Part shown: piece after piece, positions 20,470 to 22,326 of the stretch
How positions within the stretch are numbered: the first letter of the stretch is position 1
How the letters are laid out: the number at the start of each line of letters is the position of its first letter
Assembly: GCF_004786035.1 (NCBI RefSeq)
Contig: NZ_CP035088.1
Span: 1,586,001 to 1,650,000, forward strand
Length of the DNA: 64,000 bases
Source of the DNA: Pseudomonas viciae
GTDB taxonomy: Bacteria > Pseudomonadota > Gammaproteobacteria > Pseudomonadales > Pseudomonadaceae
Reading direction: 5' to 3'
Translations under genes and position numbers: made by a program
The notes under the pieces: model-generated
The model's database searches: none
What the model saw: the letters and a program-made list of their open reading frames with translations, nothing else
What the model was told of the DNA's origin: nothing

Positions 20470-20553
20470 TGTGGGAGCGGGCTTGCTCGCGATAGCGGTG
20501 GGTCAGCTGACTTCAATGCTGGCTGACCCGGCGCCATCGCGAGCAAGCTCGCT
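20470..20553. repeat. REP doublet split by the IS110 element
   Basis: A left REP arm (GTGGGAGCGGGCTTGCTCGCG) and a right arm that reads GCGAGCAAGCTCGCT and then stops. The missing piece, CCCACAG, resumes at 21723 beyond the transposase gene. Joining the two restores an ordinary REP arm, so this is the insertion target. Confidence 0.9.
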
Positions 20554-20576
20554 TGTATGTTTAGACTTGAAGGGGT

Positions 20577-20715
20577 GGGCGGGACTAAAAGCTCGATTCC
20601 GACTCTAGCCAGTACGGACCGTGGGAGACTTCTCGTTCCGCCCTTTCTACCTAAAGCGCCGATAAGGAATTCATCGGTAAAACCGACGATAGAGGCAAGC
20701 CAGCGCAAAGGTAGA
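20577..20715 (+). ncRNA. Predicted IS110 bridge RNA
   Basis: Two stem-loops with internal loops lie in the 5' non-coding end. Loop 1 is closed by GGGCGGGAC (20577-20585) with GTTCCGCCC (20635-20643) and has an inner hairpin TCCG/CGGA. Its left strand carries AAGCTCG (20589-20595), identical to the target bases before the CT core. Its right strand carries GTGGGAG (20621-20627), the reverse complement of CT-CCCAC after the core. Loop 2 is closed by TCTACCT/AGGTAGA (20646-20652, 20709-20715) with inner hairpin TCGGT/ACCGA. It carries weaker matches to the element ends (AAGGAAT for the left donor, CAAG for the right). RNA ends are not determined. Confidence 0.75.
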
Positions 20716-20754
20716 CCCCGACAAGCACCTAAACCCTAGCTCCGAGGATTCGTC

Positions 20755-21717
20755 ATGACAATCCTTAACTCACCAACGGTTATTGGTATCGATGTAGCGA
20801 AGGCCGAAATCGTCGTTTACCGCGAAGACCTGAAAATCACTCAAGCCATCGACAACAATCGAGAAGCTCTTGGCCGGTGGCTCAAAACACTACCAGCCCA
20901 AAGCTCGATTGCGCTGGAAGCCACCAGTTTTTATCACCTGGACACAGCTGAGCTGGCCCATGGAATGGGGTTTCATGTTTACGTTGTGGATCCTTATCGG
21001 GTGGCTCATTACCGTGAAAGTATTGGTCTGCGGGCTAAAACTGATCCTTGTGATGCGCGTTTGCTGGCTCGTTATCTAACGAACGAACAAGCAAGGCTGC
21101 GTATCTGGAGCCCACCTCCAGAAGCCTACAAAGTGTTAAAAAGCCTGCTTAGAAAACGTGCGGCACTCATCAAGGCCCGCGTCAGCATCGTGCTGAGCTT
21201 TTCGAACGAACCGCGTCTGAAGGACATCTTGGCCCGGCAGTTGGAGGTCTTCAAAGAGTCCGATCAGGCCATTCAGAAACTAATGCGTGAGGCCAGCCAA
21301 GCGGCAGGGATCACTGAAAACATCAACCGCTGCAAAGCCATTGAAGGGATTGGTGAACTGACGGCCATTGGCTTGGCGACCGCATTCATGCGCGGTCACT
21401 TCGTCAGTGGCGATGCATTCATTGCTTTCTTGGGGATGGATTTGCGTCCAAAAGATTCAGGGAAGAAGCACAGTCCTCGTCACTTGAGCAAAAAAGGGGA
21501 CGGGGAGCTACGACGCTTGGCGCACAACGCCGCGATGGCGGCCTGTCGGTCTCCTGCCTGGAAACCTTACTATGAGGCCTTCTTGGCACGAGGCCTGGCC
21601 AGAACTCAGGCCTTGGTTATCCTCGCTCGCAAGTTGTGTCGGGTAGCATTCGCCCTGATGAAAAATCAGAGCGAATACCAACCAAATTCAGGGTTGCAGG
21701 GTTCCCCTGCAACATAG
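20755..21717 (+). CDS. IS110-family transposase (DEDD recombinase)
   Basis: A 320-residue recombinase. The RuvC-like domain has Asp13 (GIDVAKAE), Glu55 (IALEATSFYH), and Asp97 and Asp100 (KTDPCDARLLARYL). The C-terminal Transposase_20 domain has the candidate catalytic serine Ser235 in RPKDSGKKHS. In characterised relatives the protein works with a bridge RNA that pairs with target and donor DNA. All catalytic residues are present, so it looks intact. The stop codon lies only 3 bp from the right boundary. Confidence 0.95.
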   Translation: MTILNSPTVIGIDVAKAEIVVYREDLKITQAIDNNREALGRWLKTLPAQSSIALEATSFYHLDTAELAHGMGFHVYVVDPYRVAHYRESIGLRAKTDPCDARLLARYLTNEQARLRIWSPPPEAYKVLKSLLRKRAALIKARVSIVLSFSNEPRLKDILARQLEVFKESDQAIQKLMREASQAAGITENINRCKAIEGIGELTAIGLATAFMRGHFVSGDAFIAFLGMDLRPKDSGKKHSPRHLSKKGDGELRRLAHNAAMAACRSPAWKPYYEAFLARGLARTQALVILARKLCRVAFALMKNQSEYQPNSGLQGSPAT

Positions 21718-21732
21718 AATCTCCCACAGTTT

Positions 21733-22326
21733 TTAGAGGGTGAAGTCGCCTTCCGCCACCAGTTCACTCAACGGTCGGCGCGGGCTTGGGGTTTCGCGGG
21801 CCTGGAGGTAATCGGCCAGGGTCGATTTGTCCCCCAGCTTGCCGATTGCCACGGCGGCGTGCAGTGCATAGCCTTGCGGGATCTTCAGTTCCTTGCGGGT
21901 CAGTTCCTGGTCGAAACCGGCCATGCCATGGGTGTGCCAGCCGCTGAGGCTGGCTTGCAGCGCGAGGTGGCCCCAGGCCGCGCCCGTATCGAAGGTGTGG
22001 CACAGCGCCGGGGTTTCTTCGGTGGCGCCGGGTACCGCGAAGGTGGTTTTCGAGGCGATAATCACCAGCGCCGAGGCATGTTGAGCCCAGCCGCGGTTGA
22101 ATTCATTGAGCAGGCCCAAAAAACGCTCCCAGTTTGGCGTGTCGCGGCGCGCATAGAGAAAGCGCCACGGCTGCGAGTTGTACGCCGACGGCGCCCAACG
22201 AGCGGCTTCGAAGAAGCCCAGCAGGGTCTCCTCGGCAATGCTCTCACCGGTAAAGGCTCGGGGCGACCAACGCTCGATGAACTGAGGATGAATAGCGTAA
22301 TCGGCAATGCGAGAATTAGCGCTCAT
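21733..22326 (-). CDS. Nitroreductase family protein
   Basis: A 197-residue FMN-dependent oxidoreductase. RWSPRAFTGESI near the N-terminus and RWAPSAYNSQPWRFLYA are the usual flavin-binding segments, and GWHTHGMAGFD lies in the middle. The physiological substrate is unknown. AGGTAAG precedes the ATG. It lies within the rnd-ycgN region, and the IS110 insertion is just beyond its 3' end, so the gene itself is not disturbed. Confidence 0.9.
   Translation of the reverse strand: MSANSRIADYAIHPQFIERWSPRAFTGESIAEETLLGFFEAARWAPSAYNSQPWRFLYARRDTPNWERFLGLLNEFNRGWAQHASALVIIASKTTFAVPGATEETPALCHTFDTGAAWGHLALQASLSGWHTHGMAGFDQELTRKELKIPQGYALHAAVAIGKLGDKSTLADYLQARETPSPRRPLSELVAEGDFTL

Follow-up and report, generated by a model that had tools for sequence, protein, structure and literature searches.

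The window that we analysed, a stretch of 64,000 nucleotides of Pseudomonas viciae, contains an insertion sequence lying between two genes that we take, from the look of their translations, to encode a 2-hydroxyacid dehydrogenase-like and a nitroreductase-like protein (Table 1). The recombinase of the element combines a DEDD RuvC-like N-terminal domain with a C-terminal Transposase_20 domain that carries the conserved serine. In a profile search both PF01548 and PF02371 exceeded their cut-offs with this protein, and NF033542, 'IS110 family RNA-guided transposase', reached 177.4 bits against a cut-off of 140. The solved IS621 and ISCro4 proteins also match it by sequence, and its residues D13, E55, D97, D100 and S235 align with IS621 residues. 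The left end measures 201 nt and the right end extends only 3 nt past the stop codon. Given these two lengths, and by the layouts described in PMC11208160, the element is on its sequence an insertion sequence of the IS110 group; the IS1111 group, in which a long right end holds the RNA, was rejected because of the 3-nt right end. A search of a phage collection with the element gave no match, and plasmid matches, found in 2235 records, were all below 60% identity, the best among the matches listed being at 31%.

It had been claimed in an earlier note on this DNA that the element split one arm of a REP doublet, restored as AAGCTCG-CT-CCCAC, and that the other arm, reading AAGCCCG, was not used; the coordinates of the split arm checked out and the second arm is indeed found in the sequence. 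The right-hand flanking gene was matched in 29 of the 57 genomes searched, its own genome counted, and both flanking genes lie close together at 19 of the 24 relatives' loci that we examined. One relative, L220, has an orthologous intergenic region with an intact REP doublet; the arm that matches is AAGCTCGCTCCCACAG there, and the CT core occurs in it once. The orthologous doublet is also present in L222, with the variant AGGCTCG, and the remaining loci have different repeats or none between the flanking genes. From the intact doublet of L220 it follows that the insertion in the window is exact, with CT alone on both sides and no longer target duplication.

Table 1. Features of the insertion sequence and of its target site, in positions of the window.
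Feature	Position	Strand	Evidence
Unused REP arm of the same doublet, reads AAGCCCGCTCCCAC	20470-20492	-	Sequence read
Broken REP arm: left target half AAGCTCG (20545-20551) and CT core (20552-20553)	20545-20553	+	Intact orthologous doublet in L220
IS110-group insertion sequence, 1167 bp between two CT cores	20554-21720	+	Ends shared by relatives; empty site in L220
Left non-coding end with predicted bridge RNA	20554-20754	+	Fold; alignment of relatives; stem covariation
Predicted bridge RNA fold, outer stem CTTG..GGGG / CCCC..CAAG	20566-20725	+	Folding; alignment of relatives
5' arm of target-loop stem, GGGCGGGAC	20577-20585	+	Pairs with 20635-20643; compensatory changes in relatives
Left target guide AAGCTCG	20589-20595	+	Covaries with target
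Small hairpin within target loop (TCCGACT...AGTACGGA)	20598-20618	+	Folding; relatives
Right target guide GTGGGAG, spans CT core and CCCAC	20621-20627	+	Sequence; sites of relatives
3' arm of target-loop stem, GTTCCGCCC	20635-20643	+	Folding; compensatory changes
Donor-loop hairpin, stem TCTACC/GGTAGA (20646-20651/20710-20715), inner stem GCGC/GCGC	20646-20715	+	Folding; relatives
Probable left donor guide AAGGAAT, 5/7 to ATAGAAT and one further G-T wobble	20664-20670	+	Sequence comparison
Probable right donor guide CAAG, complementary to CTTG where core and left end meet	20696-20699	+	Invariant in 42 left ends
Gene of the IS110 recombinase (320 aa; DEDD and serine)	20755-21717	+	PF01548, PF02371, NF033542; IS621 and ISCro4 structures
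Right CT core (21721-21722) and right target half CCCAC (21723-21727)	21721-21727	+	Sequence read

Folding of positions 20565-20736 recovers both stems of the predicted RNA (z = -2.7, 1 of 200 shuffles being equally stable), and the target-loop stem, with nine pairs including one G-U, comes out exactly where the earlier note had placed it. In the minimum-energy fold the two target guides are partly paired together. The donor hairpin folded by itself gave again a z-score of -2.7 with 1 of 200 shuffles equally stable, while the target hairpin by itself is unremarkable (z = -0.9, 31 of 200). The two guides are also found at the positions read before, on the 5' and the 3' side of the loop respectively. 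Of 20,000 dinucleotide-shuffled versions of the left end, 529 contained the left 7-mer and 205 the right one, and 2 had both in order within 60 nt. Together they had been said to cover all 14 target bases, core included; all 14 are covered, but the CT core of the window element is read by the right guide alone, since the left guide is followed by AT and not by CT. No Rfam covariance model matched at its gathering score anywhere in the element, and when the search of 20500-21800 was relaxed to E up to 5 only Qrr was returned, on the minus strand within the gene (E 3.2, 17.6 bits against 50).

The recombinase has a match at E up to 0.001 in 187 of 398 Pseudomonas genomes. We gathered 179 loci. 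In 39 of them, fragments or loci at contig ends, the left end could not be read, and in 8 our search pattern gave no right end. Both ends and the target could be read in 132 loci with 44 distinct left ends, and as three sites recur across records these loci represent 129 distinct sites. Five of the 8 loci without a patterned right end belong to genome G080 and were used only in the guide-target test on 21 loop strings described below; left out besides were L007 (guide AAGCTCG, target AGGCTCG), L087 (guide and target both AAGCTCG) and L012 (no target sequence available).

Four copies of the element are present in its own genome, all of them at AAGCTCG-CT-CCCAC. The REP arms of the target form number there 326 AAGCTCG, 448 AAGCCCG, 35 AGGCTCG and 0 AAGCCAG, so that four copies out of four at AAGCTCG would have a chance of about 0.03 if these four variants were drawn by abundance. 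In the third copy (L003) the guide-covered bases are kept, with a 7/7 guide match, and the left arm of the REP is absent. Three genomes together have 13 copies with an identical left end; 12 of these are at AAGCTCG and the remaining one is at AGGCTCG. If a one-base shift is permitted, target and left guide agree at 7/7 in 56 of the 129 sites, at 6/7 in 52, at 5/7 in 16 and at no more than 4/7 in 5 (L053, L068, L073, L074, L122); at a fixed offset these numbers are 55, 43, 10 and 21. The right guide matches at 7/7 in 124 sites and at 6/7 in the other 5. Copies at sites unrelated to the guide had been named beforehand as an outcome that would speak against a guide; what we observed is a left guide at 6 or 7/7 in 108 of the 129 sites of the family, in addition to the AAGCTCG copies just listed. 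That every copy should lie at AAGCTCGCTCCCAC was too strict a demand on the relatives, in which guides and targets have moved together.

Indeed, guide and target shift jointly among the relatives, through AAGCTCG, AAGCCCG, AGGCTCG, AAGCCGG, AAGCCAG and others. In L150-L153 both guides are altered (TAGTTCG and GTAGGAG) and the target reads AAGTTCG-CT-CCTAC. The left guide of G080, AAGCCGCC, agrees at 8/8 bases with five targets; the right guide of the same genome predicts CTCTCAC where the actual target is CTCCCAC, a prediction wrong at 1/7 bases. Covariation of guide and target was observed for the left guide across lineages and within genomes, and for the right guide in one lineage (L150-L153).

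Some of these loci have unusual surroundings. The right flank of L156 (G349) contains, within 65 bases of the right core, an element end in inverted orientation, CCCTGTGGGAGATTCTA, that belongs to a second element; each arm of a single REP doublet seems to have taken up an insertion. L125 and L127 (G018), with a guide match of 6/7, are preceded by GCGGA(G/A)CGCCGCCCGATTCG and not by a REP left arm. In L074 (G186), which matches its target at 2/7, a part of the right flank (CTCCCACATTTGGTAG) recurs in the left flank; this locus looks like a rearranged junction. In G080 (L071, L129-L132) about 240 bases separate the end of the protein match from the right core, in two versions and with a REP-like part, in contrast to the window element, whose right end is 3 nt long.

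The earlier note had also made its reading depend on a fold conserved in homologues. For this comparison 42 left ends were aligned, L073 and L168 being excluded. RNAalifold on a plain MAFFT alignment gave double changes at only 2 of 30 pairs; since covariation was so scarce and this alignment misplaced the target-loop stem between clades, the target-loop and donor stems were aligned outward from the loop by a script, with slid partners as a control. In such conditions, 353 of 420 cells are paired at pairs 1-10 of the target-loop stem, compared with 225, 229 and 252 in the slid controls. Pair 6 of this stem is C-G in 9, U-A in 17 and A-U in 14 of the 42 left ends, and 26 of them have an A-C mismatch at pair 2, which adjoins the loop. 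The donor stem could be parsed in 40 left ends (2 of the 42 could not); at pair 4, 10 of these have U-A and 30 have C-G, and 30 are paired at pair 5; in the hairpin at the tip of the donor arm three pairs are well kept and three poorly. The 42 left ends therefore share the fold, with compensatory changes. By eye, the columns of the left guide are variable within an otherwise well-conserved left end.

Guide-target agreement was then quantified over 21 distinct loop strings. Guide and target are identical at 121 of 147 positions, against 92.1 (sd 4.0) for permuted targets, none of 20,000 permutations being as good; with a shift allowed the values are 126 and 100.7, again with 0 in 20,000. When 7-base windows were moved along the left end over 123 offsets, in 20 of the 21 loop strings (G080 excluded), one clear peak was obtained, at the guide (z = 6.2, the next being 2.7), and the same scan with reverse-complement windows gave nothing above z = 2.1.

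This agreement between guide and site, repeated across many related elements, makes the reading of the guide sound, and we consider it very probable that the left end of the window element encodes a bridge (seek) RNA that guides insertion into the REP site AAGCTCG-CT-CCCAC. By analogy with IS621 and ISEc21, from which we infer transcription, RNA binding, a circular intermediate and the chemistry, the recombinase would bind the RNA made from the left end. Its first loop would pair with both strands of the REP, the left guide with the bottom strand and the right guide, core included, with the top strand, and the second loop would pair with the joined ends of the element. The recombinase would then exchange strands at the CT core and insert the circular element, so that CT remains on both sides.

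The strand of this RNA deserves attention, because several features would suit a guide RNA transcribed from the opposite strand, as Asr9 is in ISPpu9, or RNAs with different jobs made from both strands. The minus strand folds more stably in 42 of 42 left ends, the two strands of the window left end having similar z-scores (-2.7 for plus, -3.3 for minus), and the A-C mismatches at pairs 1-2 of the target-loop stem become wobbles if the minus strand is the one transcribed. The mismatches of the left guide lean the same way, 39 being minus-strand wobbles and 20 plus-strand wobbles, with 43 that fit neither strand. A terminator-like stem with a T tail (positions 20689-20671 on the minus strand, inside the donor hairpin) could also matter for an antisense RNA. 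We nevertheless find a minus-strand guide improbable: on the plus strand the match to the bottom strand comes first and the match to the top strand second, which is the order reported for IS621 and ISEc21 and reversed in IS1111 elements (PMC11208160, PMC11187229), and the mismatches of the right guide are plus-strand wobbles at 5 of 5 sites, although that of G080 is an exception. A scan for sigma-70-like promoters passed none in the integrated left end; the best score at the circle junction was 8/12.

To exclude that hosts merely offer a repeat matching the loop, we counted four REP variants in 36 genomes and compared the variants occupied by 96 copies, which remain from the 132 rows after removal of 5 without genome assignment, 6 in uncounted genomes and 25 with other targets. 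The variant that fits the guide best is occupied by 77 of these copies, where abundance predicts 50.3, and none of 20,000 draws reached 77; with a shift allowed we obtained 75 against 47.7 expected. The fit of the guides to the REPs present in their genomes is likewise better than that of shuffled guides (5.90/7 against 5.53, 0 in 20,000). This last result is what shared ancestry would give if clades of elements simply stayed in clades of hosts in which the commonest REP variant resembles the loop by chance. The lineages are indeed related, insertions of related elements are partly non-independent, and all agreement tests were run without an element tree. We judge this explanation very unlikely, given that the dominant variant is the best fit to the guide in only 17 of 32 genomes and that the copies choose the fitting variant all the same. 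In G125, for example, three of four copies are at AAGCTCG, a variant that makes up 106 of 1075 counted arms, and in G254 both copies are at AGGCTCG (45 of 1344).

We find it very unlikely that the recombinase itself or the shape of the REP hairpin picks the site, the left end being a translation-regulating 5' leader as in ISPpu9 and its matches coincidental. In favour of this view, a transposase was held responsible for the target choice of two REP-inserting IS3-family elements (PMC1525189), the structured 5' leader of ISPpu9 is described as regulated by small RNAs (PMC8450116) and the REP inner stem is retained at 125 of 132 sites by a lenient test. Against it, guide and target change jointly between lineages, the REP variant occupied within a genome follows the guide more often than abundance would give, and agreement with the guide is 6 or 7/7 at 5 of the 7 sites that lack the stem.

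Returning to the guide RNA itself, we looked at the bases that follow the left guide at a fixed offset in the 129 sites: they are AT in 85, CA in 31, CT in 12 and AA in 1, so the left guide is not followed by CT at 117 sites. Distant Pseudomonas lineages such as G266 and G060 retain CT at this place. As the core is absent from most left guides, we class the predicted RNA of the window as a bridge RNA of the IS110 group and not as the IS621 form. We tentatively suggest, as a possibility and with less than even confidence, that the bridge RNA of this Pseudomonas lineage changes in step with the REP variants that each host genome contains, and that the left guide has mostly dropped the core (AT or CA for CT) and left it to the extended right guide alone, an altered form of the IS621 division of labour that selection would keep in a family tracking a moving repeat.

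RNA-guided transposons of this type, those targeting REPs included, are already published, and the window element is very probably a further example. Bridge RNAs, or seekRNAs, were described in 2024 (PMC11208160, PMC11187229, PMC11208158), and covariation of guide and target has been reported over thousands of IS110 elements (PMC11208160). With IS621 of E. coli, as presented in PMC11208160, the window element shares an IS110-group recombinase, a long left end, a two-loop RNA (predicted for the window element), a CT core, a REP target, and a left guide that matches the top strand with a right guide complementary to it. It differs from IS621 in its distant protein (78 bits, E 7.4e-21), in its target, which is a Pseudomonas REP, and in its right guide, which spans 7 bases including the core where that of IS621 has 4; the IS621 left guide pairs with the core (PMC11208160), whereas the left guides of the window family mostly have AT there.

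In P. putida KT2440, all seven copies of ISPpu9 and all seven of ISPpu10 were reported in 2006 to lie in REPs and to have 2-bp repeats (PMC1525189); the window element resembles them, by their published description only, in belonging to the IS110 family, in its 2-bp repeat and in its insertion into a Pseudomonas REP. The leader of ISPpu9 is also reported to be covered by a stable antisense RNA, Asr9 (PMC8450116). ISPpu10 and ISPa11 are, according to a legend in PMC11208160, among six elements with a predicted bridge RNA and guide pairing. Like the seekRNA of ISPa11 in P. aeruginosa, the predicted RNA of the window would guide insertion into a Pseudomonas REP; ISPa11, unlike the window element, is of the IS1111 family, with its RNA downstream of the gene and the opposite order of strand matches (PMC11187229). 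ISEc21, as described in the same paper, is also an IS110-family element with its RNA in the upstream non-coding region and the same order of strand matches, and its relative ISMch6 has an altered guide and target, as is seen in the window family; the target of ISEc21 lies inside IS3-family transposase genes and its transposase is larger, at 358 aa (PMC11187229). In a literature search that took in few subscription journals, none of the papers listed was centred on covariation between guides and REPs in Pseudomonas elements.

The target guide of a bridge RNA could here be read from one element and then confirmed from public genomes alone. As the family offers more than 100 natural insertions, about 20 guide loops and target variants that can be counted in each host, the tolerance of the guide, its drift and its tracking of host repeats become measurable. 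The recombinases of the family, with their longer right guides, are also candidates for genome engineering.

On the donor side the matches had been called weak, and they are: AAGGAAT agrees with ATAGAAT at 5/7, and CAAG amounts to 4 bases. AAGGAAT is also 5/7 to the end of another lineage, so its own end fits no better. In sister clades that have AAAGAAT the match is 6/7 to their own end and 4/7 to the end of the other lineage. The element end AGAATCT is found in 129 of 129 sites, though the search pattern nearly required it, and CTTGTATG in 128. Since there is little variation in the element ends or in GAAT and CAAG of the loop, covariation on the donor side is invisible within the window family. 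Distant Pseudomonas IS110 lineages with the same layout (G266, G320, G041 and G060; 28-31% protein identity) have a different end, ACGGTAT, which is identical at 7/7 to the loop sequence ACGGTAT and matches the window's end at 4/7. By these comparisons the donor guide has good support in the wider group, and in the window element a donor guide is plausible, though in a degraded form. The target guides of these lineages are also matched to their sites: G266 has the left guide TACCCACC-CT for the target AACCCACC-CT, and G060, in another matched change, TACCCAGC-CT for AACCCAGC-CT.

These four genomes contain a second Pseudomonas IS110 group (L243-L246, L251-L253, L257, L258, L261, L262). Its guides spell ACCCACC-CT, TGTCCGCC-CT or ACCCAGC-CT sites, which apparently also lie in inverted repeats, and in G041 two copies of the second-group element are found in tandem.
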